Shown one piece after another: positions 26,205-39,549 of a stretch of DNA of 64,000 nucleotides. The stretch is from assembly GCF_027706725.1 (NCBI RefSeq), contig NZ_JAQFWQ010000021.1, positions 1 through 64,000 on the forward strand. Direction: 5' to 3'. Under the pieces are notes generated by a model, which was not told the DNA's origin, made no database searches, and worked only from the letters and a program-made list of their open reading frames with translations. The DNA is from Nocardiopsis endophytica (lineage in GTDB: Bacteria > Actinomycetota > Actinomycetes > Streptosporangiales > Streptosporangiaceae). Position 1 is the stretch's first letter; each line of letters begins with the position of its first letter. The position numbers were made by a program, and so were the translations under genes.

Positions 26205-27344
26205 GTGGGGGACGGGCGGACCGGCGAGACCGGGAGCAGGCTGCGCCTGCTCAGCCTGAGGACCGTCATGGGCTCGATATCCGCGGTCGGCGCGCTGCTC
26301 GTGGCGATAGACGCCGGGTCGTGGCAGGTCGCGGTGCTCCTCGCCGCCGGTCTGGTGACGGCCCTGCTGGTGGCCAAGCGGTGGGCCGTGGGCCGCTACT
26401 CGCCGCTCGCGCTCCTCGCCCTGGCCGTGACGGCGGCCGTGTGGCCGGCCGCGGCGATCGCGGCGGACGCGCCGACGGGGATCTACGCCTTCGCCGTCGT
26501 GGCGACCGTCATCGCCTTCGAGGTGCCGCGCCTCCGGTGGGCACTGGTCGCGGGCACGGCCGCATCGATCGCCGCCATCGTCGCGGTGAGACCGGCGGTG
26601 ATGGGCGACGACGCGGTGGATGTGCTCCTTCGCCATGGCGTCGTCGCGCTGTGCATCGCCACGCCCGGCGTCGTCCTCACGGTCCTGGCCTACGCCGTCC
26701 ACGAAGTGATCGGGGAGCTCGAGCGCGCGCAGGAGCGCGACGCCGAGCTGGCGGTCATGCGGGAGCGGGTGCGCTTCGCCGGGGACCTGCACGACATCCA
26801 GGGGCACACGCTGCACGTGGTCAGGCTGAAGGTCGCCCTGGCGAAGAGGCTGCTGGAGGACGGCCACGGCGACCCGGCGCGCGCCGGGGAGGAGCTGGAC
26901 GAGGTGCACGGGCTCGTCGGGGACACGATCGCGCGGACCAAGGAGCTCGCCTACGCACAGCGGCGGCTGAACTTCTCCGCGGAGCTGGAGAACGCGAAGA
27001 ACCTCTTCGAGGCGGCGGGCATCCGGGTCGAGGTGGAGCGGACGGGGGAGGTCGGTGCGCGCGCGGGGGAGATGCTGGGACAGGTCCTCAGGGAGGCGAC
27101 CACCAACATCCTGCGCCATGCGGAGGCCGGACACGTATGGATCACCGTCTCGGAGGCGGGGCTCACGGTCGCCAATGACGGGGTGGACGGCGGGGGGACG
27201 GCGGCACTGGGCGGGCTCGCCGTCCTGCGCGATCGCCTGGCCGCCGAAGGGGGAGAACTGACGGTGGAGCAGGAGGACGGGGTGTTCCGGACGGCCGCGG
27301 CGTTTCCGGGAGCTCTCGCACAGGGGAGGACGACCGACCGATGA
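26205..27344 (+). CDS. NarL/DesK-type sensor histidine kinase
   Basis: 379 aa from the GTG at 26205, which has GGAGGGGGA five bases upstream. The frame is open further upstream (ATG at 26082), but that would place the start next to the palindrome without a ribosome site. About five to six membrane segments span residues 18-170 with little extracytoplasmic sequence, so it probably senses within the membrane. The HisKA_3 box FAGDLHDIQGHTLHVV has phospho-acceptor His196, and the ATPase N-box is REATTNILRHAEAGHVW. The stop overlaps the regulator in ATGA. DesK-like kinases respond to membrane state, so the adjacent exporter may be a target. Confidence 0.9.
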   Translation: MGDGRTGETGSRLRLLSLRTVMGSISAVGALLVAIDAGSWQVAVLLAAGLVTALLVAKRWAVGRYSPLALLALAVTAAVWPAAAIAADAPTGIYAFAVVATVIAFEVPRLRWALVAGTAASIAAIVAVRPAVMGDDAVDVLLRHGVVALCIATPGVVLTVLAYAVHEVIGELERAQERDAELAVMRERVRFAGDLHDIQGHTLHVVRLKVALAKRLLEDGHGDPARAGEELDEVHGLVGDTIARTKELAYAQRRLNFSAELENAKNLFEAAGIRVEVERTGEVGARAGEMLGQVLREATTNILRHAEAGHVWITVSEAGLTVANDGVDGGGTAALGGLAVLRDRLAAEGGELTVEQEDGVFRTAAAFPGALAQGRTTDR

Positions 27345-27943
27345 TCACCGTGGTGCTGGCCGACGACGAGGCGCTCCTCCGGAAGGCGCTGGCCGCCCTG
27401 CTCCCGATGGACGGCGGGATCACCGTGCTGGCCGAGGCGGAGGACGGGGAGGAGGCGGTCGCGGCGACGCTGAGGCACCGGCCGGACGTGCTCGTGATCG
27501 ACCTGGAGATGCCCGGGACGGACGGATTGGGTGCCGTGTCGGCGGTGCGCAGGGAGCTGCCCGAACAGGCGGTGCTGATGCTGACGAGGCACGCGCGGCC
27601 GGGGGTGCTCCGCAAGGCGCTGAAGCTGGGCGTGCAGGGGTTCGTGAGCAAGTCGGCGGAACCGGGGCACATCGCGACGGTGATCGGCGCCCTGCATGAG
27701 GGGAAGCGGTGGATCGACCCGGATGTGTCGGCGCTGGCGGTGATCGACGACTGCCCGCTGACGGACCGGGAGATCGACGTGCTGAGGGAGACGCGGGACG
27801 GCTACTCGGCGGCGGACACGGCGGCGAGACTCCACCTGGCCGAGGGGACGGTGCGGAACTACCTGTCGAACGCGATGCAGAAGACCCAGACCCGCACCCG
27901 CCACGAGGCGGCCCGCTATGCACGCGAGCACGATTGGTTGTAG
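27341..27943 (+). CDS. NarL/LuxR-type response regulator
   Basis: 200 aa, ATG at 27341 overlapping the kinase stop. The receiver domain has the acidic pair Asp8-Asp9 (LADDE), phospho-acceptor Asp54 in VIDLEMPG and a conserved Lys in VSKSA. The C-terminal LuxR helix-turn-helix runs from CPLTDREIDVLRETRDGYSA to EGTVRNYLSNAMQKTQ. It partners the upstream kinase. The palindrome 26062-26081 is the obvious candidate binding site for a dimeric regulator. Confidence 0.93.
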   Translation: MITVVLADDEALLRKALAALLPMDGGITVLAEAEDGEEAVAATLRHRPDVLVIDLEMPGTDGLGAVSAVRRELPEQAVLMLTRHARPGVLRKALKLGVQGFVSKSAEPGHIATVIGALHEGKRWIDPDVSALAVIDDCPLTDREIDVLRETRDGYSAADTAARLHLAEGTVRNYLSNAMQKTQTRTRHEAARYAREHDWL

Positions 27944-28013
27944 GTGTGTGTTCGAGGAAGCGGAGTGGTTTGAAACAAGCAGTTGCTCGAGAAATCGCCC
28001 CAGTTCAGCGAGC

Positions 28014-28042
28014 CTGCTCCCCGCGCAGGCGGGGATGAATCG
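28014..28042 (+). repeat. Single type I-E-like CRISPR repeat (orphan)
   Basis: A 29-base unit with the core CTCCCCGCGCAGGCGGGGATG aligns without gaps to type I-E repeats: the stem CCCCGC/GCGGGG, the GGGGAT run and the terminal CG sit where the E. coli repeat has them. Only one unit is present. At the expected spacing (about 61 bases) on either side there is no second copy, no spacers, and no cas gene in the window. It may be a stray repeat or array relic. Confidence 0.5.
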
Positions 28043-28089
28043 CCTCTGCATGACCACGCGATGCCGACGGCTCCACCCTCCTCGTTACC

Positions 28090-28105
28090 CTCCCCGTAAG
28101 GGGAG
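28090..28105. terminator. Short GNRA-loop hairpin before the monooxygenase
   Basis: CTCCCC-GTAA-GGGGAG forms a 6-bp stem with a GNRA-type loop between the response regulator and the monooxygenase start at 28127. It could be a weak terminator, an mRNA leader hairpin or a degenerate CRISPR-like unit. Confidence 0.35.
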
Positions 28106-28126
28106 ACTGCGGGCGAGGGGGAGCCG

Positions 28127-29653
28127 GTGTCCTCAGTACTGATTGTCGGGGCCGGGCCCACAGGGCTCGCTCTCGCCTGTGGTCTGCTCGTCGCCGGTGT
28201 GGACGTTCGGATCGTCGACGCCGCCGACGCCCCCGCCACCACCTCCCGCGCCCTCGGGCTGCAACCCCGCGGCGTCGAGGTGCTGGACCGCCTGGGCGCC
28301 CTGGGCGACCTCCCCGAGCGCTCGGTTCACATGGCCGGGACCATCGTCCACGTCCACGGCAAGGAGAAGCTGCGCCTCGCGGTCCCGGCCGGCGTCGTGC
28401 TGGGCGGTCGCAGCGCGCTGGTCATCCCCCAGTCCGAGATCGAGGCCCGGTTGCGCGAACGAGTCACCCAGCTGGGCGGGCACATTGAATGGGGCCGCGC
28501 CGTCACCGGCATCGTGCAGGACACCAACGCCGCGCGCGTGGCGTTCGCCGACGGCCTCACCACCCACGCCGACTGGGTCGCGGCCTGCGACGGCGCGGGC
28601 AGCCGGGTCCGACACGCCGTCGGCATCCCCCTGCTCGGGGAGACCGCCCCCGAACGCTTCCTCCTGGCCGATGTGCGTGTCGCCCTCCCGGTCGAACCGG
28701 GCTTCGCGTCCATGTGGGCCGCCGAAGGCGGTTCCCTGGCCGCGATCCCGTTGCCCGGCGACGACCTGTGGAGGCTGATGGCGCCGCTCCCTGAGAACGA
28801 GCCCGATGACCCGCCCGCCGAACGGATCGCCGGACTGCTCGACGGCATGCTGCGCCGACGGACCGGAATGGTGCTCCCCTCCGGAGACGACGTCCTGTGG
28901 ACATCGTCGTTCCGCATACACCGCCGACTCAGTGACTCCTACCGGCGGCACCGCGTCCTCCTGGCCGGGGACGCCGCGCACATCAACAGCCCCGTGGGCG
29001 GCCAGGGCATGAACACCGGACTCGGCGACGCGGAGAACCTCGCCTGGAAGCTTGCCCTGGTGGCGCAGGGACAGGCCTCCACGGACCTGCTCGACACCTA
29101 CGAGGCCGAGCGCCGACCGGTCGCCGAGAAGGTGGTTCGGTCGGTTGGCGGCGTCGACCGGCTGCTGCTGAGCACCCACCCCGCGATCGCGTTCCTACGT
29201 GAGCACGTGCTCTACCCGCTGGTGAACAGGCCCGCAGTGCAACGCCGTGTGTGGCGGACCGCGTCCCAGCTCGGCATCAGCTATCGCAAGGGTCCGCTCG
29301 CGCGGGGCGCCGGTGGCCGGGTCGGCGGCCGGAGGCCTGGCGACCGGATGCCCGACCGGAGCTGCCGCCGCGCCGACGGGGCCGGGGACACCCGGCTGTA
29401 CGCGGAGCTCGGCGGAGCGTGGGCGCTGCTCACCGGAGACCCCCGTCGGGCGGTGGCCGGCGCGGACGGACTCCGCCTGCGCCTCGGAGCCGGGCGCCTC
29501 ACCGTCCTCGTTGTTGCCGACCAGCCCGCCGACCGCCTCGTCCTGGTCCGCCCTGACGGCCACATCGCCTGGCAGGGCGGGGTGCGCGGCTCCCCGGAGC
29601 GCTGGCTCGACACGATCCTGCACCACGCCCCGCCGGACCGATTGCAGGGCTGA
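28127..29653 (+). CDS. FAD-dependent monooxygenase, aromatic-polyketide hydroxylase type
   Basis: 508 aa, GTG at 28127 with GGGCGAGGGGGAG upstream. Class A flavin hydroxylase: GAGPTG at residues 8-13, the middle motif DWVAACDGAGSRVR, and LLAGDAAHINSPVGGQGMN with GDAENLAWKLAL. The C-terminal thioredoxin-like domain is shortened and Arg-rich. Relatives hydroxylate aromatic polyketides or antibiotics such as rifampicin and tetracyclines. It lies 0.7 kb upstream of the RiPP precursor on the same strand, separated by an AT-rich leader with its own promoter. It may tailor the peptide or provide resistance, or be unrelated. Confidence 0.88.
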   Translation: MSSVLIVGAGPTGLALACGLLVAGVDVRIVDAADAPATTSRALGLQPRGVEVLDRLGALGDLPERSVHMAGTIVHVHGKEKLRLAVPAGVVLGGRSALVIPQSEIEARLRERVTQLGGHIEWGRAVTGIVQDTNAARVAFADGLTTHADWVAACDGAGSRVRHAVGIPLLGETAPERFLLADVRVALPVEPGFASMWAAEGGSLAAIPLPGDDLWRLMAPLPENEPDDPPAERIAGLLDGMLRRRTGMVLPSGDDVLWTSSFRIHRRLSDSYRRHRVLLAGDAAHINSPVGGQGMNTGLGDAENLAWKLALVAQGQASTDLLDTYEAERRPVAEKVVRSVGGVDRLLLSTHPAIAFLREHVLYPLVNRPAVQRRVWRTASQLGISYRKGPLARGAGGRVGGRRPGDRMPDRSCRRADGAGDTRLYAELGGAWALLTGDPRRAVAGADGLRLRLGAGRLTVLVVADQPADRLVLVRPDGHIAWQGGVRGSPERWLDTILHHAPPDRLQG

Positions 29654-30353
29654 CCGGGATCGGGCGGCATCCCCTTCGGAGCGGAGGGCGACCGTGGAAC
29701 GGCGCCCCGCCCCGCGCGGACCGGAGGAGTGAATGCAGCCTATCCGGAATTCATATTTTTCAAGAATGTGCCAGGTGGGGGCGGGTGGGTGGCGCGTGGA
29801 AGTAAATGAGGAAACCTTTTCAGGTATTCGGGTTCGCTGGGAAGTGATCTTGGCCGGGTCGGGAGGTATCTCTCGGCCTCGCTTTTCGCAATGGATTCAA
29901 GTGAGGATCGAATTGTGCAGGGGAGGGGGAGATCGTGACGCATCGTAATGGATCCTGGATGGTGCGTATGGTCGGAGGTCTGGTCGGCCATTCCCTGCTT
30001 CCTGCGTTCGCACCCAGCTTTGCCAGGAGTTTCTCGCGCTCGGCGATCGTGATGTCACGGAGGGGGGTCGGCCGTTGGTCCGAATAGTGGAATGGTCCGT
30101 GCCGGGCTGTCCCGAATCGGTCACCGTCGTTGACGCGCCATTACGGGCGCGGCTAGCTTGTCCATGCGCCTCACAGGGAAAGCGAATTGGGTTCGCATTC
30201 CCGGCGGAGGTGTGGGCTGAATGCGCGGCCCGGATCGGGGCGGCTGAATTCTCCTGGGATCGACTCTGTCATTCACCGGGGGCGTCCCGGCGCTGGACCC
30301 GTGCATCCGGCCGGACGAAGAGAATCCACACGAATCGAATGAGGTGAACCGCG
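29654..30353. other. AT-richer 700-bp leader before the RiPP precursor gene
   Basis: From about 29735 to 30350 the base composition drops clearly below that of the neighbours, with runs such as AATTCATATTTTTCAAG. Two frames are open but neither shows actinomycete third-position bias. One (29733-29948, 71 codons) has GGAGGAG just before its ATG and might be a foreign small gene. The other (30075-30347) overlaps the promoter at 30130-30159 and is rejected. Most of the stretch is best read as a regulatory leader or transferred DNA. Confidence 0.5.
30130..30159 (+). promoter_or_regulatory. Promoter candidate of the RiPP operon
   Basis: TTGACG (30130-30135), an 18-base spacer and TAGCTT (30154-30159) lie about 190 bases ahead of the precursor ATG. 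A start near 30166 would leave a long untranslated leader. It is the only good -35/-10 pair seen in the gap. Confidence 0.55.
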
Positions 30354-30458
30354 ATGCAGGAGACCGTTGAGAGCACCATGGAGTTCGACTGGGACCTGGG
30401 CGTTCAGGAGGACGACCAGGACTACCCGGTGCTGCTGTGCACCGACTACATGGCCTAA
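30354..30458 (+). CDS. Putative RiPP precursor peptide, 34 aa
   Basis: ATG at 30354 with GAGGTG nine bases upstream, TAA at 30456-30458. The peptide is very acidic in its first 24 residues (MEFDWDLGVQEDDQDYP at 9-25) and ends in the neutral VLLCTDYMA (26-34) with the only Cys at 29. This leader-then-core layout, the small size and the YcaO gene 157 bases downstream are what defines RiPP precursors. Cys29 could become a thiazoline/thiazole, or the backbone could form an amidine or thioamide. A weak hairpin (30464-30479) follows the stop and could favour high precursor yield. The cleavage point is unknown. No similar core is known to me. Confidence 0.72.
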   Translation: MQETVESTMEFDWDLGVQEDDQDYPVLLCTDYMA

Positions 30459-30615
30459 GGCCGGTCGGACGGGGCCGACGCACCACGCCTAGCGCACAGC
30501 GGCCGGCCCCTCGGTGAACAGGTGGGGGCTGGGCGGCGTGCTGGTACCACGCCTCCGGCTCCCACCCCGTCCCCGCACCGACACATCCAGAATCGCGCAT
30601 GCCCGGAGAGTCGAT

Positions 30616-31632
30616 GTGAAGACCTGGCCGATCCTAGCAGGCACACTTTTCCTCGCCACCCACCGCGGCCCCGCCGAGACGGCCGTGGGCGGCGCCTGCG
30701 ACACCGACCCCGAGCGGGCCGCCGCACGCGCCGAGGCCGAGTACACCGAGCGCACCGCGCTGATCGAGAACGGTCCCGGCCTCCTTCGACGGCGCGCGGA
30801 CCTCCTCGGTGGCGGCGTGCCCACCATCGCGCCCGTCCCCGCCCTTGACGACGAGGAATGGTGGCTGCCCGGAACCGCCCTCGGCGGCGCCGGGCCCCCG
30901 CGCCCCGCCGCGGTCCCCGCCATCACCTCCCTGCTGAAGTGGACCGACGGCCGCCCGCTGCGGTGGAAACAGTCCTCGGTCGGCACCGCGGCCCACCCCG
31001 ACCCCGCCGTCGCCGCTGAGACCGCCCTGCTGGAGACCCTCGAACGGCACGCCGTACGGCGGGTGTGGCACGGGACCGCGCGGCTGGAAGCGGTTGACGC
31101 GCACCTGGAGCCGGCGCTCCCCGAAGGCGTCCGCGCCGAGCTCGACCGCGCCGGCCTGGCCGTGCGCGTGTGGCGCATCCACGACGACCTGCCGGTAAGC
31201 GCCGTCCTGGCCGCCGTGCTGCGCCGGGACAAGGAGCAGATTACCTTCGGCGCCTGCGCCCGGCGGGCCGCGGACCTGCGCCCGGCGGTCCGGCACGCCG
31301 TGTGCGAGGCGGTGAGCGTGCGCGCGGCCCTCGCCAACGCCTCGTCGGACCCCGCCGAGGTCGCCCGGCCCCGGGAGATGGCCCGCCGCCAGAACGACTT
31401 CCTGGACCACCTCTCCGCCATGGAGGTGCCGGTCGCCCACCCCGCGGACCCCGCCGCCACCGCCGACCTGGGGGCGGCGGTGGCGCGGCGCTTCGGCGCC
31501 GACCCCGTCGCCGCCGACCTGTCCCCCCGTGAGGGACCGCCGGTCGTCCGCGTGGTCATCCCCCACCCGGAGTTTCTCCTTCCCGCGGACAGCGAGAGCC
31601 GCTACGCCCTCTCGCCCGGCTACATCGAGTAA
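30616..31632 (+). CDS. Stand-alone YcaO-domain protein
   Basis: 338 aa from the GTG at 30616, which has GGAGAG five bases upstream. The frame is open to 30514, but no ribosome site supports that. YcaO ATP-binding blocks are visible: AVGGACDTDPERAAARAEAE with the following YTERTALI (23-50), and SSVGTAAHPDPAVAAETALL with ETLERHA (120-146), giving the metal/ATP glutamates. YcaO enzymes use ATP to cyclodehydrate Cys/Ser/Thr, or to make thioamides or macroamidines. There is no fused or adjacent E1-like (ocin-ThiF) partner and no C-terminal PxPxP, as in bottromycin YcaOs. It presumably modifies the peptide encoded at 30354. Confidence 0.85.
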   Translation: MKTWPILAGTLFLATHRGPAETAVGGACDTDPERAAARAEAEYTERTALIENGPGLLRRRADLLGGGVPTIAPVPALDDEEWWLPGTALGGAGPPRPAAVPAITSLLKWTDGRPLRWKQSSVGTAAHPDPAVAAETALLETLERHAVRRVWHGTARLEAVDAHLEPALPEGVRAELDRAGLAVRVWRIHDDLPVSAVLAAVLRRDKEQITFGACARRAADLRPAVRHAVCEAVSVRAALANASSDPAEVARPREMARRQNDFLDHLSAMEVPVAHPADPAATADLGAAVARRFGADPVAADLSPREGPPVVRVVIPHPEFLLPADSESRYALSPGYIE

Positions 31633-31655
31633 GACCACGTACGAGGGGCACCACG

Positions 31656-32876
31656 ATGACCCGAACACTGCACGCACCGCGCGGCCCCCTGCCCCGGTAC
31701 GAGCGCGACCCCGCCACCCCGCTGCGCGCCGTCCGCGCCGGTGACCGGTTCGCCGGGGACGCCAAGCACCGCCGCGCGGTCTGGGCCTACTACCTGGGGG
31801 ACCTGTCCCCCTCCCCGCAGACGGTGCCGATGGCCACCCGCTGGCTGGCGGTCGTCGAGGACATGGCCGCGGGCGTCACGCCGGTGCAGCGGCTGGTCCC
31901 CGGATCCTTCTACCCGGCGGGGTTCCGGGAGCAGGTGGCCGCCGGGTGCGGCCTGGCCGACGCCCCCTCCGCGGCGGCGGACGGCGGCGACGGTGACGCG
32001 CCCGGCGGCCTCACGGGCGCCCTCGACCGCGCCTCCGAGGCCGCGACCGACGAGCTCGTTCTCGCCGCGACCTCCCTCAACCTGCAGTCGCGCTACCGCA
32101 CGGTCGTGCGGCGGCTCGGCGCGACCGCGCGCGAACGCCGCGACCGCCTCCTGTACATCGAGGTGCTGCGGGCCGCCTACAGCGCCTCCCGCAGCTCCGA
32201 GGAGGCGGCGGCGCACTTCGCCAAGGTCGCCGACAGCGGTGCCTGGCCCCCGCTGTTCCGCCTCGGCGCCGCCGTCCGCCTCATCGCCCACTACAGCCGC
32301 AGCACCAAGGACGCCGAGTCCCGCACCCGGTGGGTGGACTTCGGAGAACGGGTACTGCGCGAGTCCGGCGAGGACACCTTCGAGTGGAACCTCTACCGGA
32401 GCCACCTGGACCGCGCCGTCGCCCTCCACGACTGGATGCGCGGCGAACGCGACGCCGCCCACGACCGCCTGGACACCGCCCGCCGGATCGCCGCCGAGCT
32501 CCAAGCCGTCGCCGCCACCCCGGCCTGGCACCTGGCGGCCCTGCACGCCGAACGGCTCGTTCTGGAGGCCGCGCTCAAGGCCTTCCTCTACGGGCGCACC
32601 GTCGAACGCGCCGCGGAGGCGGAGGAGACCGCCGACAGGATCGCGGCCATCGACCCCGCCGACCCCTACGCCAACCTCGTCGCGGGCGACACCTTCTGGG
32701 CCCTGGGCGACGACGGGCGCGCCGTCCGGTGCTTCACCCGCGCCGCCGCCGCCGGAACCCTGGCGGGCGCCTACGCCGCGCACCGCGCCGCAGGCGCCCT
32801 GGAGGAGCTGGGCCGCGGCGGCGAGGCCGGGGCCTGGCGCCAGCGGGCGCGCGAGCTGGACCCCGAGGCGCCATGA
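31656..32876 (+). CDS. Helical (TPR-like) repeat protein of the RiPP operon
   Basis: 406 aa, ATG at 31656 with ACGAGGGG upstream, 23 bases after the YcaO stop. Almost entirely alpha-helical. The last 130 residues show TPR-like helix pairs (AAEAEETADRIAAIDPADPY, then GDDGRAVRCFTRAAAAGTLA). The N-terminal part is basic and contains WAYYLGDLSPSPQTVPMATR. No catalytic motif was recognised. Its position beside a YcaO lacking its usual partner suggests a scaffold that binds the leader peptide or bridges enzymes, but this is inference. The stop overlaps the MFS gene in ATGA. Confidence 0.75.
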   Translation: MTRTLHAPRGPLPRYERDPATPLRAVRAGDRFAGDAKHRRAVWAYYLGDLSPSPQTVPMATRWLAVVEDMAAGVTPVQRLVPGSFYPAGFREQVAAGCGLADAPSAAADGGDGDAPGGLTGALDRASEAATDELVLAATSLNLQSRYRTVVRRLGATARERRDRLLYIEVLRAAYSASRSSEEAAAHFAKVADSGAWPPLFRLGAAVRLIAHYSRSTKDAESRTRWVDFGERVLRESGEDTFEWNLYRSHLDRAVALHDWMRGERDAAHDRLDTARRIAAELQAVAATPAWHLAALHAERLVLEAALKAFLYGRTVERAAEAEETADRIAAIDPADPYANLVAGDTFWALGDDGRAVRCFTRAAAAGTLAGAYAAHRAAGALEELGRGGEAGAWRQRARELDPEAP

Positions 32877-34258
32877 GGTCCCCGCTGCGCAAGGCGGCGT
32901 CGGGCGCCGACGCGTCGGGCCCGGCCGCCCCTACCGCCCGTGAGCTGCGCCGCCGCCACCCCGCCCTGCGGTCGGCCTGGTGGGGCGCGGGGTTCGCGCT
33001 GACCGGGACCGAGACGTTCGAAGTCCTCGTCCTGATGCTGACCACCGCCGCCTACGGCGCGGTGCTGTCGGTGGGCGCGCTGGGGTTCGCGCTGCGGATC
33101 GCCCCGATGCTCCTCGCGCCCGCCCTGACGGCCGCGCTCGACCGCAGACCCGAGCGCCGGGCCCGCTTCGCCCGCCTCACCGTCCCGGCCCGGGCCGTCG
33201 GAATCGGCCTGTTCGCGGCCGTGCTGCTGCTGCCCGGAGCGCCCTCGTGGATCCTGTACGTGCTCGTCGGAGCCGTCTCCGCGCTGGATACCGCCTACCT
33301 GTCGGCCACCCGGGCGACCCTGCCGCGGATCCTGGAGGACGCGGAGGAGCCGGGCGTCCTGGGGCGGGCGAACGCGATGCTGGTCGTCCAGTGGAACACG
33401 CTGCAGATCCTGGTGCCCCCGGCCGTGGTCTGGGTGCTGCAGGCGACGGGGGTGTCCGTCGTGGTCGCGGTGGCGGTGGCCCTGCTGCTCGCCGCGTTCG
33501 CCCTGCTCGGGCGCTACGAGCGGGCCTACCCGGCCGACGCGGGCCCCGAGTCAGCCTCCCCGCCCGACCCCTTCTGGAACCGCTTCACCGCGGGGTTCCG
33601 CGCGATCCGGGGCGACGCGGTGGCGCGCGCCGTCGTCGTGTCCGGGGCCGCCGGGCAGGGGGCGATCTTCACCTTCTCGGTCGCCGTCCCCCAGGTGGTG
33701 GACCCCGCGGAGGTCGGCATCACCCTGAGCGCCCTCGCGGTGGGATCGATCGTGGGGGCACGCCTGGCGTCCCGCGCCGAGCGCCCCGCCGCCCAGTACG
33801 CCGCGCTCGCCGGCGCGACCGCCGCCCTCGGCGGCTCCCTGGCCGCCTTCGCGCTGTCCGCGCACCCGGCCGTGGTGCTGTCCGCCGCCCTGGCGGCGGG
33901 GGCGTGCGCCGGAGCGGCCGCAGTGGCGCGCACGACCCTGCTCCAACGGCGGTTCGCCGACGCCCGCCTCGGCGGGGTCGTGGTGTCGGCGATGGTCCTC
34001 GGGCAGGTACTGATGCCCTTCCTGCCGCAGGCCTGGGACCTGATCGCCGAACGCGCCGCCGCCGGCTGGGCGTTCGTGCTCCTGGCCGCTCTGCAGTTCG
34101 CGGCCCTGGCGTTCATCGCGCTGGGCCTGCGCCCCGGCGGCGCCGCCCGCGCGGCCCTGCGCGAGGCGGCCGGCGGAGGGGACGACGGCGGCCTGGAACC
34201 GCGGGCCCGTTCCCAGGACGGGCGGACCGGCGACCCGACACGAGGAGGCGACGAATGA
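32873..34258 (+). CDS. MFS transporter, probable peptide exporter
   Basis: 461 aa, ATG at 32873 overlapping the previous stop by 4 bases. About 10-12 membrane segments, a short loop with ALDRRPERRARFARL after the second pair (the MFS motif-A position), and a central loop around YERAYPADAGPESASPPDPF. The C-terminal tail is hydrophilic. It resembles the drug/peptide efflux MFS subgroup (enterobactin-exporter-like MFS_3). In the operon it most likely exports the mature peptide and gives self-protection. Coupled to the S9 hydrolase by another ATGA overlap. Confidence 0.87.
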   Translation: MRSPLRKAASGADASGPAAPTARELRRRHPALRSAWWGAGFALTGTETFEVLVLMLTTAAYGAVLSVGALGFALRIAPMLLAPALTAALDRRPERRARFARLTVPARAVGIGLFAAVLLLPGAPSWILYVLVGAVSALDTAYLSATRATLPRILEDAEEPGVLGRANAMLVVQWNTLQILVPPAVVWVLQATGVSVVVAVAVALLLAAFALLGRYERAYPADAGPESASPPDPFWNRFTAGFRAIRGDAVARAVVVSGAAGQGAIFTFSVAVPQVVDPAEVGITLSALAVGSIVGARLASRAERPAAQYAALAGATAALGGSLAAFALSAHPAVVLSAALAAGACAGAAAVARTTLLQRRFADARLGGVVVSAMVLGQVLMPFLPQAWDLIAERAAAGWAFVLLAALQFAALAFIALGLRPGGAARAALREAAGGGDDGGLEPRARSQDGRTGDPTRGGDE

Positions 34259-35874
34259 CCACGCTGCATCCGGCCCCCGAGCACCACCAGGGGTTCGCCC
34301 GCCTGCCCCGGCGCTCCGGGGCCGTGGTGGAGGGCCTGCCCCGGCCCTTCACCGAAGCCCTCATCGACCACCCCCCGAACTCGGTGGCCTGGTGGCGCGG
34401 CCGCTGGGTCGTCTCGGCCACCGCGTGGGGCGGCCGTGACCTGGCCGCCGCCGTGCCCGGCGGGGCCTGGGAGACCGTGGCCGCACCCCCGGGCTGGGCC
34501 CGCCGCCCTATGACCGGCGACTCTGGCGACGCACTGAGTTGCCTGCTCCACGATCCGTCCGAGGACGGCGGCGAGCAGATCGCCCTGGGCCCCGACGGGT
34601 GGTCCACGCTGCGCGGCGGAGTGGAGCTGGGCACCGTCGCCGACTGGAACGGAGCCGACCTGGCCGTGCACGACCCCGTCCACCGGCACGCCTCGGCCCT
34701 CGGCCCGAACGGGGCCTTGCTGTCCGTGGCCGACGGGCGGCTGCGCGGCGGCACCGGTGCCGGACGGTGGTCGGTGCCCCTGCCGCCCGGCTGCACCGTC
34801 AGCCTCATCTCCTGCTCGCCCGGCCGCGCGCACGCGCTGGTCGTGGTCCGCAACCGCTCCGACTTCCAGACGCACGTCTTCCGCACCGCCGACGGCACGA
34901 GCGCGGGACCGCACTCCCTACGCGAGGTGCTGCAGCCCGTCGCGGCCTGGATCGATGAGCACCGGGCCGTCCTCGTGCGCGAGCGGTGGCCCCGCCTGGA
35001 GCCTGTCGTGTGGAACTGGGCGACCGGGGAGTGCGAGCCGGTGTGGGAGGCGGGTGCGCTGGGCACCGTCCGCTCGCTCGCCGCCTCCCCCGACGGGGAC
35101 GTCGCCTACGCCGCCTCCACCCCGTGGGTGCCTCGCAACCTCTTTCCCCTTGACGCACCCGCCCCCGGCGCCGACCCCGAACGGGCCCAGGTGCGCACCG
35201 AGGTCGTGGACAACGCGGGCCAGCCCGTGCCCTGTGTGGTGCACGACCCGCCGACTGCTCCGCGGGCGACCTGCCTGGTGTTCCCCGGCGGGCCGCACGA
35301 GCCGGTGTGGTCCGAGTACGCCCCGCTGGTGGACGTGCTGTCCGCCGCAGGGTGGCGGGTGGTCAAGGTGAACGTGCGCTCCAGCGGGCTGCGCGAGGCG
35401 CGCTTCCGGCCCCGCTCCGCCTTCCGGTACGGCGTCGACGACGTCGCCGACGCCTGCGCCGCCGCCCGCGCGCTCGCCGCCGGGCCGGTGGTCTCCCTGG
35501 GCATGAGCTACGGCGGGTCGATCGCCTCGGCCTGCGCCGGAACGCTGCCCGAGGCCGTCGGCGCCGTGGTGCTGGCCGGGTTCGTCAGCCCCTGCGACGT
35601 CGCCGACAGCCGCTACGGCCCCGTCCGCGAGTTCGCCGCGTTCGCCTTCGGGGAGCGGCTCGGTGACCGTCCGCGCCGCCTCGGCACCCCCCACTTCATC
35701 GCCCACGGAGAGAAGGACGACAGGATCCCCGTCGCGTCCCTGGAGCACTACCGCCACCACGACGGCGCGGACCTCCTCCGCCTGCCGGGCGAGGGCCACG
35801 GGATCCACACCGACAGCGCCGCTCGCGCTGTCTACCCCGCGATGCTGCACTGGATGGAAGGCGTGATCTCGTGA
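34255..35874 (+). CDS. S9 prolyl-oligopeptidase-family hydrolase
   Basis: 539 aa, ATG at 34255 (ATGA overlap with the MFS stop). An N-terminal beta-propeller-like region of about 310 residues carries repeated Asp/Gly-rich turns (SPDGDVAYAAST and similar). It precedes an alpha/beta hydrolase domain with nucleophile Ser418 (GMSYGG), acid Asp489 (HGEKDDRIPV) and His515 (GEGHGIHT). The triad is intact. S9 peptidases cut short peptides, often after Pro. The precursor has a Pro at residue 25, just before the core, so leader removal is an attractive role. Lack of a signal peptide fits cytoplasmic processing. Confidence 0.88.
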   Translation: MTTLHPAPEHHQGFARLPRRSGAVVEGLPRPFTEALIDHPPNSVAWWRGRWVVSATAWGGRDLAAAVPGGAWETVAAPPGWARRPMTGDSGDALSCLLHDPSEDGGEQIALGPDGWSTLRGGVELGTVADWNGADLAVHDPVHRHASALGPNGALLSVADGRLRGGTGAGRWSVPLPPGCTVSLISCSPGRAHALVVVRNRSDFQTHVFRTADGTSAGPHSLREVLQPVAAWIDEHRAVLVRERWPRLEPVVWNWATGECEPVWEAGALGTVRSLAASPDGDVAYAASTPWVPRNLFPLDAPAPGADPERAQVRTEVVDNAGQPVPCVVHDPPTAPRATCLVFPGGPHEPVWSEYAPLVDVLSAAGWRVVKVNVRSSGLREARFRPRSAFRYGVDDVADACAAARALAAGPVVSLGMSYGGSIASACAGTLPEAVGAVVLAGFVSPCDVADSRYGPVREFAAFAFGERLGDRPRRLGTPHFIAHGEKDDRIPVASLEHYRHHDGADLLRLPGEGHGIHTDSAARAVYPAMLHWMEGVIS

Positions 35875-36461
35875 CACAGGCAGTGCACAGCGACATGGCC
35901 GGGATCGTTCCGCCCCGGGTGATCGAGGCCGAGGAGTGCGCCCGGCGCGAGGACTACGAGCTGTCCAGTTCCCGCGAGACCGGGGCGCTGCTGCGGGTGC
36001 TCGCCGCGAGCAAGCCCGGCGGCCGCATCCTGGAACTGGGTACCGGTGTGGGCGTCGGCGCCGCGTGGATCCTCGACGGCATGACCCCCGACGCCCGTCT
36101 GGACACCGTGGAGGTCCACGAGGAGGCGTGCGCGTTCGCCAGCGGCATCCTGGCCGGAGACGAACGCGTCGAGGTGCACTGCGCCGACACCCGGGAGTGG
36201 ATGCGCGCCAATGCCGGCGCCGGGTACGACCTCATCTTCGCCGACGCCGGGCACCCCAAGTTCTACGAGCGGGACCTGACCGTCGGACTCCTCGCCCCCG
36301 GCGGCATCCTCCTCGCCGACGACCTGCTGCCTCAGCCCAAGTGGGTGGACGAGCACCCGCGGCTGGTGGGGGAGTTCCGCAGCACCATCCATGAGGACGA
36401 GCGGCTCGCCACCGTCATGGTGGACTGGGCGTCCGGCCTGGCGCTGTCGGTGCGCCGGTAG
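35871..36461 (+). CDS. O-methyltransferase-like SAM enzyme
   Basis: 196 aa, GTG at 35871 overlapping the peptidase stop (GTGA). The SAM-binding motif LELGTGVGVGAAWIL is at about residues 54-68, and ARLDTVEVHEEAC gives the acidic ribose ligand. FADAGHPKFYERDL matches the YrrM/caffeoyl-CoA O-methyltransferase branch. It could methylate the Tyr hydroxyl, the Asp or C-terminal carboxyl, or another group of the modified peptide. The next gene starts 12 bases after its stop. Confidence 0.87.
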   Translation: MTQAVHSDMAGIVPPRVIEAEECARREDYELSSSRETGALLRVLAASKPGGRILELGTGVGVGAAWILDGMTPDARLDTVEVHEEACAFASGILAGDERVEVHCADTREWMRANAGAGYDLIFADAGHPKFYERDLTVGLLAPGGILLADDLLPQPKWVDEHPRLVGEFRSTIHEDERLATVMVDWASGLALSVRR

Positions 36462-36473
36462 GCGGGGCGGCAG

Positions 36474-37931
36474 ATGACCGGAGCAGCCTCCCCTGCGGGC
36501 CGGGCCCACACCGCACCCGCCCCCACCGCCGCACCAGCCGCCCGCGGCGCCTCCGGCGGCCGTGACGGGCTGGACGGCCGCGCGGCGGCGCGGCTCCTCG
36601 CACCGCTCGCCGACCGGGTCCACCGCCCTGGCGACCCCGCCTATCGGGATGCCCTGCGGCTGTGGAACACCCGGACCGCCGCCGAGCCCGCCGCGGTGGT
36701 GCGCCCCGCCACGGCCGATGAGGCCGCCCGCGCCGTGCTGGCGGCGCGCGAGGCGGGCCTGGAGCCCTCCGTCCGCGGCGGCGGCCACCACGTCGCGGGC
36801 GGCGCGGTCCGCACCGACGGCGTGGTCGTCGACATGCGCGGCCTCGACCGGGTCGTGCTGGACCCGGGCACCGGCCGGGTCACCGCTGGCGCCGGGGCCA
36901 CCTGGCGCGACGTCGCGGCGGCCACCGTCCCGTACGGACGGGCCGTCCCGACCGGCAACGCGCCTTCGACGGGCGTAGTGGGCGTCGCGCTCGGCGGCGG
37001 CATCGGCGTGTTCACCCGGGCCTGGGGGCTCACCTGCGACCGGGTGGTGCGGGTCGGGCTGGTGGACCCCGAGGGGCGCCGCCGCGACGTGGGCCCCGAC
37101 CGGGACCCTGACCTGTTCTGGCTCGCCCGCGGGGCCGGGCGCGGCATCGGGGTGGTGACCGAGATCGAGTTCGACACCCGCCCCGTCGCCCCCGAGATCG
37201 CCACCGCCCAGGCCTTCTACCCGCTCTCGGACGCCGTCGACGTGCTCGAAGCCTTCGCCCGCGCCGTGGGGGCGAGCCCCGACCAGGTGAGCCCGCAGGC
37301 CACCCTCCGCCGTCTCCCCGACTCAGCCGGCCTCCCGCCCGCCCTGCGCGGGCGGTGGCTGGTGGCCGTCGGAGCGGCCTACGCCGGGCCGCCCCACGAG
37401 GCCGGCCCCGTCCTGGAGCCGTTCCGGCGCCTGGGCGAACCCGTGGCCGACCTCAGTGGCGACCACCCGGTCCAGGAACCCGCCCAGCCGTGGCGCAGCA
37501 CCCTGCGCGCCCACTCCTTCGGGGCGTTCCTCGACGCGCTCGGCCCGGCGACGGTGCGCACCATTGCCGCCGCCTTCGGCGGGGGCCGCCCGCCAGGGGC
37601 GTCCGTGACCCTGCGCAGCATGGGTGGGGCCGCGGCCGAGGCCGACGACGACGCCACCGCCTTCGCCCACCGGCGCGCGCGCTTCCTCCTCACCGCCCAG
37701 GCGGAGTGGGACGATCCCCGTGACGACGAGGCGTGCACCGCCTGGTGCGAGGCACTGGAGCGCTCCGTGCGCAGCGAAGGGGCCACGGGCGTCTACGGCA
37801 ACTTCTGCGCCGACCTGGAGGGCTTCGCCGCCCGGCGGGCCGACGCCTACGGCGCGACCGACCGGATCGACGCGATCCTGCGGCGGCACGACCCCGACGG
37901 GGTTTTCCGGGGGATGGCGATGCGGCCGTGA
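36474..37931 (+). CDS. BBE-like FAD-linked oxidase
   Basis: 485 aa, ATG at 36474. The first 35 residues are Ala/Pro-rich. The FAD_binding_4 domain has RGGGHHVAGGAV (101-112), where His105 is the usual covalent 8-alpha FAD anchor. The second anchor of berberine-bridge enzymes, a Cys in a GxCP-type loop, is Ala163 here (GNAPSTGVVG), so flavin is probably attached once only. The BBE C-terminal box appears as VYGNFCADL. Such oxidases desaturate or cross-link natural products. In this operon, oxidation of Cys/azoline or Tyr in the peptide is possible. It overlaps the next gene by 4 bases. Confidence 0.87.
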   Translation: MTGAASPAGRAHTAPAPTAAPAARGASGGRDGLDGRAAARLLAPLADRVHRPGDPAYRDALRLWNTRTAAEPAAVVRPATADEAARAVLAAREAGLEPSVRGGGHHVAGGAVRTDGVVVDMRGLDRVVLDPGTGRVTAGAGATWRDVAAATVPYGRAVPTGNAPSTGVVGVALGGGIGVFTRAWGLTCDRVVRVGLVDPEGRRRDVGPDRDPDLFWLARGAGRGIGVVTEIEFDTRPVAPEIATAQAFYPLSDAVDVLEAFARAVGASPDQVSPQATLRRLPDSAGLPPALRGRWLVAVGAAYAGPPHEAGPVLEPFRRLGEPVADLSGDHPVQEPAQPWRSTLRAHSFGAFLDALGPATVRTIAAAFGGGRPPGASVTLRSMGGAAAEADDDATAFAHRRARFLLTAQAEWDDPRDDEACTAWCEALERSVRSEGATGVYGNFCADLEGFAARRADAYGATDRIDAILRRHDPDGVFRGMAMRP

Positions 37932-38980
37932 ACGGGTCGAGCGCCCCCGGGACGAGCCGGGGACACGGTCCCGCGCACCGCCCGAGCGGCCGTCCGGACG
38001 TGCTGGTCTGCCGGATCAGGAGCGCGACCACCGCAGGCCGGACCGGCGCGGCCGCGCGGCTGGCCGCCCGCCTGGCCGAAGCGGCGCCCGAGGTGCAGGG
38101 CTGGTGCGACTACGTCGCTGCGGGCTGTCGCAGTCTGGAGGGCGACCCGCAGGCGGCGCTGGCGATGTTGGACCGCAGCGAGCAGGACGGTGGCTGGTGG
38201 GCCGACGCCCTGCTGGACGATGCCTCCCTGCGCCCGGTATGGGAGCTGCCCGGCGCGCCGGAGCTGCGCGAACGCGTGGCGCGGCGGTACGCGCCGGTCG
38301 CCGCGGCGGCGAGGCCGCGCCGCGTCTGGCTTCAGCGGCCCGAACGGCCGCAGGCCGCCGTCGTCGCCCTGCACGGCAACGGCCCCCTGCCCATCGGCCT
38401 CCTGGCCCGGCTATGGCGGGAGCTGCCCGGCGTCGCCGTCCTCGCCGTGCGGTCGGGCGCCCTCATCGCGCCGGACGTGGCCGTGTGGCGCGGCGGGGAG
38501 GAGGCGGTGCGCACGGTGTCCGAAGGCGTGGACGAGGCACGCGGCGCGGTGCCGCAGGCGCCCCTGGCGGTGGTCGGGCTCGGCGCGGGTGCGGGGCTCG
38601 CAAGCCGGGTCGCCGTGCGGCGCTCCGGAGCGGTCGCCGGTGCGGTGGCGGTCGCCCCGGTCCTGCCCGCGCAGGGGCCGTACCCGGACGCCGAGGCGGA
38701 CGCCTCGCGGCCCGCGCCGCGGGTCCTGGTCCTCGGCGACGGAGAGGACGGCTCGCAGGCCGGGATCGACGGCTACGCGGACTGGGCACGCGGCCGCGGC
38801 GTCGACGTACGGATGTGGCACCGTCCGGGGCTCGGGCACGCCTTCCCCGCCGAGTTCGGGCCGGACATGGGGGAGGCGCTCCGCCTGGTCCTGGAAGGGG
38901 CCCCAGCATCGGCGGACCGGGCGGCGGGCGGGACGGGGCTCCAGGGTGCCTTTGGACCCGGAACGGAGGCGAGCGGATGA
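37928..38980 (+). CDS. Alpha/beta-hydrolase-fold protein lacking the nucleophile
   Basis: 350 aa, GTG at 37928 (GTGA overlap). An N-terminal helical region (35-125) precedes an alpha/beta hydrolase core beginning at AAVVALHGNGPLP. The nucleophile elbow, normally GxSxG, reads VVGLGAGAG (215-223), with Gly219 in place of Ser. The acid (LGDGEDG, Asp271) and the histidine (GLGHAFP, His304) are kept. It therefore cannot act as an ordinary serine hydrolase. Bottromycin BotH is a known alpha/beta-hydrolase homologue without catalytic Ser that epimerises an Asp beside a thiazoline. This core has Asp31 two residues after Cys29, so a parallel role is conceivable. Confidence 0.82.
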   Translation: MNGSSAPGTSRGHGPAHRPSGRPDVLVCRIRSATTAGRTGAAARLAARLAEAAPEVQGWCDYVAAGCRSLEGDPQAALAMLDRSEQDGGWWADALLDDASLRPVWELPGAPELRERVARRYAPVAAAARPRRVWLQRPERPQAAVVALHGNGPLPIGLLARLWRELPGVAVLAVRSGALIAPDVAVWRGGEEAVRTVSEGVDEARGAVPQAPLAVVGLGAGAGLASRVAVRRSGAVAGAVAVAPVLPAQGPYPDAEADASRPAPRVLVLGDGEDGSQAGIDGYADWARGRGVDVRMWHRPGLGHAFPAEFGPDMGEALRLVLEGAPASADRAAGGTGLQGAFGPGTEASG

Positions 38981-39549
38981 GCGAACGGACGTGGACGGCA
39001 CCGCCGCAGACCACAGCGCTGCCGGGCCAGGGTCCGGATGCCCGGCCGAATGGAGGCGGGAAGGCGGACGCCGACCGGTTCAAGCGCGTGTTCCGGCATC
39101 ACCCGGCGGGCGTGGCGGTGGTCACCTTCCGCACCCGGGCAGGACCGGCGGGCTTCACGGCCACGTCGGTGATCTCGGTGTCGGCGGACCCGCCGGTGCT
39201 CGCCTTCTCGGTGGCGAGCGGCACGTCCGCCCACGCGCTGGTGCGGACCGTGCCCCGCGTCGCGGTGAACCTGCTGGCCGAGGACCAGGCGGAGCTGGCC
39301 CGGCGGTTCGCCGCCCACGGCGCCGATCGGTTCGCCGGGTGTCCCTGGCGGGAGCTTCCCACGGGCGAGCCGGTGCTGAGCGGTACGGTTTCCTGGCTGA
39401 GCGGGTCGCTCCTGGGCTTGGTAGAGGCGGGTTCGAGCCTGATCGCGACCGTAGAGGTGCACGAGGCCCACCGGAACCGCCCGGCCAGGCCGCTGGTCTA
39501 TGCCGACCGCACCTTCCGCACCCTCGGAGGCGAGGCGCGAACACACTGA
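38977..39549 (+). CDS. Flavin reductase-like protein (FMN-binding split barrel)
   Basis: 190 aa, ATG at 38977 overlapping the previous stop (ATGA). The core follows the flavin-reductase/HpaC pattern: FRHHPAGVAVVTFRTRAGPAGFTATSV, then SADPPVLAFSVASGTSAHAL, VAVNLLAEDQAELARRFA and the C-terminal RPLVYADRTFRTL. It would supply reduced flavin to a two-component oxygenase, or act as a small flavin oxidase itself. Possible partners are the BBE-like oxidase in the operon or the monooxygenase at 28127, although neither family normally needs free reduced flavin. It is the last gene of the operon. Confidence 0.88.
   Translation: MSERTWTAPPQTTALPGQGPDARPNGGGKADADRFKRVFRHHPAGVAVVTFRTRAGPAGFTATSVISVSADPPVLAFSVASGTSAHALVRTVPRVAVNLLAEDQAELARRFAAHGADRFAGCPWRELPTGEPVLSGTVSWLSGSLLGLVEAGSSLIATVEVHEAHRNRPARPLVYADRTFRTLGGEARTH

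Follow-up and report, generated by a model that had tools for sequence, protein, structure and literature searches.

Passages of the streptamidine study (PMC8442711) describe the function of actinobacterial stand-alone YcaO proteins as mostly not known, and state that no role of YcaO outside ribosomally synthesized and post-translationally modified peptides (RiPPs) is known in Actinobacteria. Streptamidine (ami) is presented there as a YcaO product with an amidine between His1 and Leu2. In the ami precursors, motif A or motif B with ALV is found (22 network members lack both motifs), and the core is flanked by a leader and a follower; the main ami subset contains FecBCDE-like genes and ABC transporters. 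Bottromycin, whose product corresponds in partial accounts to the N-terminus of its precursor, is described in parts of PMC5103208 as encoding two YcaO proteins together with a follower peptide, and the std cluster, in the portions of PMC13174530 that treat it, comprises a YcaO, a short precursor and a major facilitator superfamily (MFS) exporter. Here, we describe a gene cluster from Nocardiopsis endophytica, found in a stretch of 64,000 nucleotides (contig NZ_JAQFWQ010000021.1, positions 1 to 64,000, hereafter the window; host genome of 7.26 Mb in 211 contigs), in which a stand-alone ycaO gene lies between a small open reading frame (ORF) and a gene for a protein with tetratricopeptide repeat (TPR)-type structure.

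A 34-residue precursor is very probably converted into a small modified peptide by this locus, and we consider it probable that it represents a RiPP gene cluster of an undescribed family that follows the pathway proposed below. We rate it as a new YcaO RiPP family, and would speak of a new principle only if the TPR protein were shown to have its proposed role.

The conserved core of the cluster

Nine genes lie in one row on the + strand at 30354-39549 (ORF list, Pfam and NCBIfam), in the order 34-aa ORF, YcaO, TPR-type protein, MFS exporter, S9-type peptidase, O-methyltransferase, berberine bridge enzyme (BBE)-like oxidase, hydrolase-like protein and flavin reductase. An earlier note on this DNA had given the same genes, order and strand, and its helical-repeat protein resembles TPR proteins in structural modeling. 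The 4-bp overlaps it had seen at most junctions were found at five of eight, namely TPR/MFS, MFS/S9, S9/O-methyltransferase, BBE/hydrolase and hydrolase/flavin reductase. The remaining junctions are spaced by 23 bp (ycaO-TPR), by 12 bp (O-methyltransferase-BBE) and, between precursor and ycaO, by 157 bp when counted from GTG 30616 or 55 bp from GTG 30514.

The precursor gene (30354..30458, + strand; MQETVESTMEFDWDLGVQEDDQDYPVLLCTDYMA) was recognized by its leader motif, its start (GAGGTGA, followed six bases later by the ATG) and its conservation. The encoded peptide reads WDLGVQEDDQDYPVLLCTDYMA, with WDLG in the leader and VLLCTDYMA as the proposed core. To place it among related loci, we used samples of 278–394 genomes per group. 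YcaO relatives at E<=1e-10 occurred in 9 of 297 genomes of the family, that is, the genome itself and eight others (35-40% identity), and in the 20-kb stretches around the latter, where genes were called with a simple caller, a small ORF with the same leader motif preceded ycaO in all eight. The earlier note had staked its proposal on such an ORF lying beside homologous YcaO genes, and its reading of the locus as a YcaO-type RiPP cluster is supported by the gene content and by this conservation. The relatives' ORFs (25-46 aa counted from the first start codon) end in WDLG(Q/E)VDE(E/S)A(A/Q/E)EFDVL(G/A)(N/T)KSY, where six have N and two have T at the variable core position, and A replaces G in one (L022). 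None of their cores holds a Cys. The window peptide has WDLG and the VL...Y frame in common with them and differs in its core (LCTDYMA); thus, the N-terminal part is common to all and the C-terminal part variable, with Val-Leu and Tyr as the core elements found in all nine precursors and in the more distant locus L050 (see below). What is conserved is therefore WDLG in the leader together with the VL...Y frame, and not a core resembling C-T-D-Y-M-A, which had been suggested as a search key.

The pattern WDLG.{5,12}VL.{2,6}Y, which was picked after viewing the peptides of the relatives and the window, matched a single ORF among the 470 small ones in the window. Each of the eight relatives' stretches also gave one match, and 11 stretches of the other family discussed below gave none; only 1 of 178,200 shuffled small ORFs matched, which places the pattern above chance. 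Among the relatives, codon differences in the precursor were 126 synonymous vs 52 non-synonymous over 28 pairs (stop codon included), or 98 vs 24 without L017, whose own pairs gave 28 vs 28; these are simple sums over non-independent pairs with no formal test. L019/L020 and L018/L021/L023 are mutually close in the alignments, so the eight relatives represent fewer independent lines. A role of this YcaO in modifying a cellular protein, with the ORF present by chance, has a precedent in the thioamidation of uL16 and McrA as described in parts of PMC13063428 and PMC5589413, but it is contradicted by the small ORF, which is conserved in all eight relatives with its common leader and mostly synonymous changes; it also fits poorly with a gene set that includes an exporter and a peptidase, and is in our view very improbable.

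The YcaO gene (30514..31632, + strand) encodes 372 aa (Pfam YcaO 87.5 bits, cut-off 25.7); the alternative start GTG 30616, which has GGAGAG upstream and shortens the protein to 338 aa, is the more likely of the two. The protein is 34-36% identical to its relatives over the alignment. The acidic signature residues of YcaO proteins (ExxER, ExxER and a Glu) bind ATP and Mg. In the window protein, both ExxER motifs and the third Glu align with those of six other YcaO proteins of the same genome. A PDB sequence search with this YcaO gave no match, and its AlphaFold model (six alignment rows) had a mean predicted local distance difference test score (pLDDT) of 44.6, too poor for use. To search for partner enzymes, 20 proteins encoded in the window from 20441 to 42855 were scanned. 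No E1/ocin-ThiF match was obtained among them with Pfam, a partner elsewhere in the genome being possible, nor was there a TfuA, a radical S-adenosylmethionine (SAM) protein (Pfam and NCBIfam) or a nitroreductase (SagB-type flavin mononucleotide dehydrogenase), a BBE-type oxidase being present instead; the absence of E1/ocin-ThiF, TfuA and radical SAM enzymes noted earlier thus holds for the proteins scanned. This is the only YcaO on the contig. Six further YcaO loci of the genome sit on other contigs (C11, C19, C38, C46 and C72), two of them approximately 6 kb apart on C11.

The product of the next gene (31656..32876, + strand), assigned from its relatives and its model, is 28-31% identical to the protein encoded directly 3' of ycaO in all eight relatives. 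It gave no Pfam match at E<=1, and its AlphaFold model is all helix with TPR proteins as the best PDB matches (mean pLDDT 65.9, with values below 50 for most of residues 1-119). Since the YcaO lacks an E1/ocin-ThiF partner and the TPR-type protein is always encoded next to it, we propose that it may bind the leader and present the core to YcaO.

The TPR and S9-type genes are present in all eight relatives (tblastn), and the order precursor, YcaO, TPR, MFS, S9-type is kept throughout. Relatives of the S9-type peptidase were found in all eight genomes at E 2e-39 to 9e-50. A search of 295 genomes for its subfamily gave nine matches that exceed 650 bits, the next one reaching 135, and these nine lie in the genomes that also carry the YcaO subfamily; their scores are raised because four of the nine matched genomes are rows of the profile. 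The 135-bit match is a second, short one over 90 positions (G108:C45:136187-136450) in a genome with the full cluster elsewhere. For the exporter, an MFS gene lies in the same region of all eight relatives (Pfam-confirmed in L017 and L018); the window protein is distant from these, with 29% identity over 268 aa to that of L018 by blastp and no tblastn match at E<=0.01 in the relatives' stretches. Genomes with the cluster core include Nonomuraea sp. SBT364, Streptosporangium sandarakinum, S. pseudovulgare, Streptosporangium sp. KLBMP 9127 and Sphaerisporangium album; by kinship the host genome falls into one family with them, probably the Streptosporangiaceae. A contig pattern search with the nine-row YcaO alignment returned 123 pattern matches and five loci, all among the nine genomes already found; with the single YcaO protein it returned 30 pattern matches, none of which was confirmed, and a plasmid collection held no TPR or YcaO match. 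The relatives carry extra genes for a JmjC_2 protein (6/8), an AHSA1+PDZ protein (8/8) and a DUF6176 protein (4/8), named by Pfam from one member per group. The family is so defined by leader, YcaO, TPR protein, an exporter and S9-type peptidase; as the tailoring genes and the core differ, with no Cys in the relatives, the end product must differ between the window and its relatives.

Related TPR proteins beside another maturase and a candidate one

A profile of the nine TPR proteins, run at E<=1e-8 against 394 genomes of the class, matched 3 of them, of which one lies outside the family; five further genomes of the genus gave no match. When 297 genomes of the family of that outlying genome were searched, 11 places in 10 genomes matched, and all 11 stretches were inspected. 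At one of them (L050, 8836-16625), genes for TPR, S9-type, O-methyltransferase, MFS and AHSA1+PDZ proteins adjoin that of a B12 radical SAM protein, which matches the maturase model TIGR03975 with 563 bits (cut-off 282). The maturase gene is preceded by a precursor-like ORF ending VFDLDNIGEADFNVLTSVRIY, also given as FDLDNIGEADFNVLTSVRIY, with the C-terminus FNVLTSVRIY. The TPR protein of L050 matched the profile at E 1.9e-22. Its S9-type protein reached 9e-50 with a profile not containing it (34.9% identity over 218 aa), while 520 bits from a profile that includes it as a row were not used. The O-methyltransferase of the window is 44.7% identical over 190 aa to that of L050. No YcaO match was obtained in the 20 kb of L050 when 11 YcaO sequences were searched by tblastn (best E 0.016). 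The related set of TPR, S9-type, O-methyltransferase and MFS genes beside a second RiPP maturase, together with a precursor of similar shape, therefore ties the module to RiPP biosynthesis.

In seven other genomes, of the family of G524 (L033, L044, L045, L046, L047, L048 and L049), the TPR part is contained in a protein of 824-839 aa. All seven loci also encode an aminotransferase class V enzyme (cysteine-desulfurase-like, pyridoxal phosphate (PLP)-dependent), an MFS protein and an M17 peptidase, based on Pfam scans of one or two members of each gene. Between the PLP enzyme and the TPR-containing protein, each of the seven has a 29-aa ORF of the type MAYETWESLADEVEISTGAADCWVCLVDA, with the consensus M(S/A/T)YE(T/S)WESL(A/T)D(E/D)(V/I)EI(S/T)TGAADCWVCL(V/M)D(A/N/Q). 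With their PLP enzyme, these loci are candidates for a further RiPP family, of which our literature search found no description. The last three places, L051-L053, were dropped, with weak TPR matches (E 1.4e-10 to 3.3e-9) and no RiPP-like neighborhood by eye.

Tailoring genes, proposed pathway and its alternatives

The genes downstream of the TPR gene, all on the + strand, would provide export, leader removal and tailoring. The MFS exporter (32873..34258) scored below the cut-offs of both models it matched (MFS_1 29.3 bits, cut-off 33.4; TIGR00900 45.5 bits). The S9-type (prolyl-oligopeptidase-like) serine peptidase (34255..35874; Peptidase_S9 43.6 bits, cut-off 22.6) has an intact GMSYG motif with Ser418, and we propose that it is the natural leader peptidase. 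It is followed by an O-methyltransferase of the Methyltransf_24/Methyltransf_3 type (35871..36461; Methyltransf_24 37.2 bits, cut-off 26.3) and a BBE-like flavin adenine dinucleotide (FAD)-dependent oxidase (36474..37931; FAD_binding_4 99.7 bits, cut-off 26.4), which reached 159 bits with the BagK/FevA1 model, below its cut-off of 800. The hydrolase-like protein (37928..38980; Hydrolase_4 and Abhydrolase_3, both below cut-off) indeed lacks the nucleophile Ser, as had been noted, with GLGAG at the position expected for GxSxG; TPR_14 matched its N-terminal part at E 0.47, and no relative was found in 25 other genomes. A flavin reductase of the HpaC type (38977..39549; Flavin_Reduct 112.7 bits, cut-off 27) ends the row.

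The cluster had previously been drawn from 28127 on. Its nine listed genes occupy 30354-39549, and the earlier start is that of an unlisted FAD monooxygenase (28127..29653, + strand; FAD_binding_3 236.7 bits) with PRK06184 and rifampin monooxygenase as best NCBIfam matches, all below cut-off. Its membership is doubtful, because it lies 700 bp before the precursor and tblastn at E<=0.01 gave nothing for it in the eight relatives' 20-kb stretches. The 700-bp gap 5' of the precursor has a G+C content of 62% vs 77% in the operon and may hold the promoter; a sigma-70 promoter scan found none, and a terminator scan found two vs 1.4 in shuffles. Rfam returned on 27900-30700 two microRNA models only, far below their cut-offs, which we regard as chance. 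Directly upstream of the monooxygenase, at 26205-27943, are genes for a histidine kinase and a LuxR-type response regulator, a pair that could regulate the cluster.

The data show the gene content, the conservation of the precursor leader and of the YcaO, TPR and S9-type proteins, and the tie between a related module and a second kind of RiPP maturase; the chemistry and the part played by the TPR protein are what we infer from this gene set. The WDLG leader of the 34-aa precursor would be recognized, most likely by the TPR protein, which would replace the missing E1/ocin-ThiF or RiPP recognition element (RRE) partner. YcaO, using ATP, would then activate a backbone amide in VLLCTDYMA, the simplest outcome being conversion of the Cys to a thiazoline, which is the plain expectation for the Cys after Leu-Leu in the window core. 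The FAD oxidase, encoded beside the flavin reductase, might oxidize the product (thiazoline to thiazole, or the Tyr), and the O-methyltransferase may cap a hydroxyl or carboxyl group. The S9-type peptidase would cut off the leader, possibly at QDYP|VLLC, and the MFS protein would export the product. For VLLCTDYMA, the computed [M+H]+ is 1028.479 without modification, 1010.469 with one cyclodehydration, 1008.453 in azole form and 1022.469 for the azole carrying one methyl; for VLGNKSY of the relatives it is 780.425 without modification and 762.415 with one water lost.

Several observations weigh against this pathway, or against its extension to the whole family. The relatives' cores have no Cys and end in G/A-(N/T)-KSY, so thiazoline formation cannot be the common reaction of the family; there, the product would have to contain either an azoline from Ser/Thr or an amidine. 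The relatives have Asp at the proposed cleavage site, which makes a cut after Pro doubtful. In seven of the eight relatives the first YcaO motif reads ExxQH and not ExxER. In the relatives' stretches, tblastn returned nothing for the O-methyltransferase, BBE-like oxidase, hydrolase-like protein, flavin reductase or monooxygenase, which leaves half of the window cluster without support from conservation. The TPR protein could itself be an enzyme, by analogy with BhaC1, a flavin enzyme with TPR in the parts of PMC11002830 that describe it. Finally, the link between the TPR proteins of the window and L050 is weak pairwise (E 0.013), the S9-type protein of L050 scores 21.1 with Pfam S9, below the cut-off of 22.6, and L050 comes from one genome (listed completeness 98%, contamination 6%).

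Taken further, the occurrence of the TPR part beside different enzymes could mean that it is a new, maturase-independent leader-recognition partner, which together with the S9-type peptidase would form a portable RiPP chassis for YcaO in Streptosporangium-type bacteria, for a B12 radical SAM enzyme (L050) and, in fused form, for a PLP enzyme (the seven genomes with M17 peptidase); the window would then represent a new class of E1-independent YcaO peptides, made by a YcaO with a TPR partner. We put this forward tentatively, with less confidence than the RiPP assignment itself.

The best-placed alternative keeps the RiPP cluster and changes its chemistry: the S9-type peptidase would free Val1, whose amine would attack the activated amide (Leu2) and form an N-terminal amidine, for which the His1-Leu2 amidine of streptamidine, as given in passages of PMC8442711, is a precedent. 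Val-Leu does occur in all nine precursors and in L050, and no side-chain nucleophile is conserved, the same place being taken by C, T or N. However, L050 pairs its VL with a radical SAM enzyme and has no YcaO match in 20 kb, so that VL may instead serve the peptidase, and the window core offers an obvious Cys; we thus regard an N-terminal amidine as a doubtful, though serious, candidate. Somewhat less favored is a division of the locus, in which only precursor, YcaO, TPR, MFS and S9-type genes belong to the RiPP pathway and the O-methyltransferase, BBE-like oxidase, hydrolase and flavin reductase to another one. The lack of matches for these four genes in the relatives' stretches and of any relative of the hydrolase in 25 genomes would fit such a split, but the 4-bp overlaps run continuously from the TPR gene through the O-methyltransferase gene, and the 44.7% identical enzyme in the related L050 module argues in the same direction; we consider the split rather unlikely. 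Activation of the backbone by YcaO for ammonia, or for a Lys side chain in the relatives, would give an amidine without an azoline. The Lys in KSY of all eight relatives and ItfB, a YcaO that installs a backbone amidine with ammonium according to portions of PMC11002830, are compatible with this route; the window core, though, has no Lys, and we regard this route as improbable.

Returning to the proposed RiPP family, its combination of a conserved leader, a constant core of YcaO, TPR, MFS and S9-type genes and variable tailoring genes would allow the question of what replaces E1 to be addressed with two or three proteins. In addition, the occurrence of related TPR, S9-type and methyltransferase genes next to a radical SAM maturase hints at a way to find further RiPP families that searches based on precursors or RREs may miss.

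Comparison with described RiPP families

The earlier note could match the locus to no described class, and this still stands: a match of the whole locus was absent from Pfam, NCBIfam and the literature searched. NCBIfam and Pfam held no RiPP family name for precursor, TPR protein or YcaO, save YcaO itself and the sub-threshold SagD. The literature search, conducted by titles, abstract starts and passages, with subscription papers and supplements outside its scope, returned no YcaO with TPR and S9 genes and no KSY peptides; a look-up of the precursor motif also returned nothing, although such peptides may be present, without a name, in the peptide networks that supplement the 2021 RiPPER study. 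The locus shares with RiPP clusters in general an encoded precursor that is conserved beside a modifying enzyme (the leader in 8/8 relatives, the core not), and with the YcaO superfamily a YcaO domain with the acidic signature residues.

The TIGR03975 cluster of L050 resembles the locus in the shape of its precursor and in its related genes for TPR, S9-type, O-methyltransferase and MFS proteins; however, L050 has a B12 radical SAM maturase where the window has YcaO, and none of the window proteins scanned matched a maturase of the rSAM_ocin_1 (TIGR03975) type. With YcaO-TfuA thioamide systems (thioamitides, std) the locus has in common the YcaO, short precursor and MFS exporter, and we rejected membership as no TfuA was found among the window proteins scanned. 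Linear azol(in)e-containing peptides and thiazole/oxazole-modified microcins (LAP/TOMM) share the YcaO domain, the SagD model TIGR03604 reaching 67.3 bits on the window YcaO (cut-off 219.25), but the window proteins scanned include neither their E1/ocin-ThiF partner nor a SagB-type, nitroreductase-like dehydrogenase, and this azole-type class was rejected as well.

Bottromycin, to which the earlier note had likened the locus, resembles it in a YcaO without cyclodehydratase partner, hydrolase-type proteins and O-methylation. Of this analogy, only the independence from E1 holds, whereas the window has one YcaO gene in place of two and a leader with a C-terminal core in place of an N-terminal core with follower, and membership was rejected. 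Streptamidine clusters, lastly, likewise combine a stand-alone actinobacterial YcaO with a short precursor and a hydrolase, in the absence of E1 or TfuA, and the main ami subset has a flavin-dependent dehydrogenase. The window precursor lacks ALV, and on this description of ami, applied without a YcaO tree, we set the locus apart from streptamidine.

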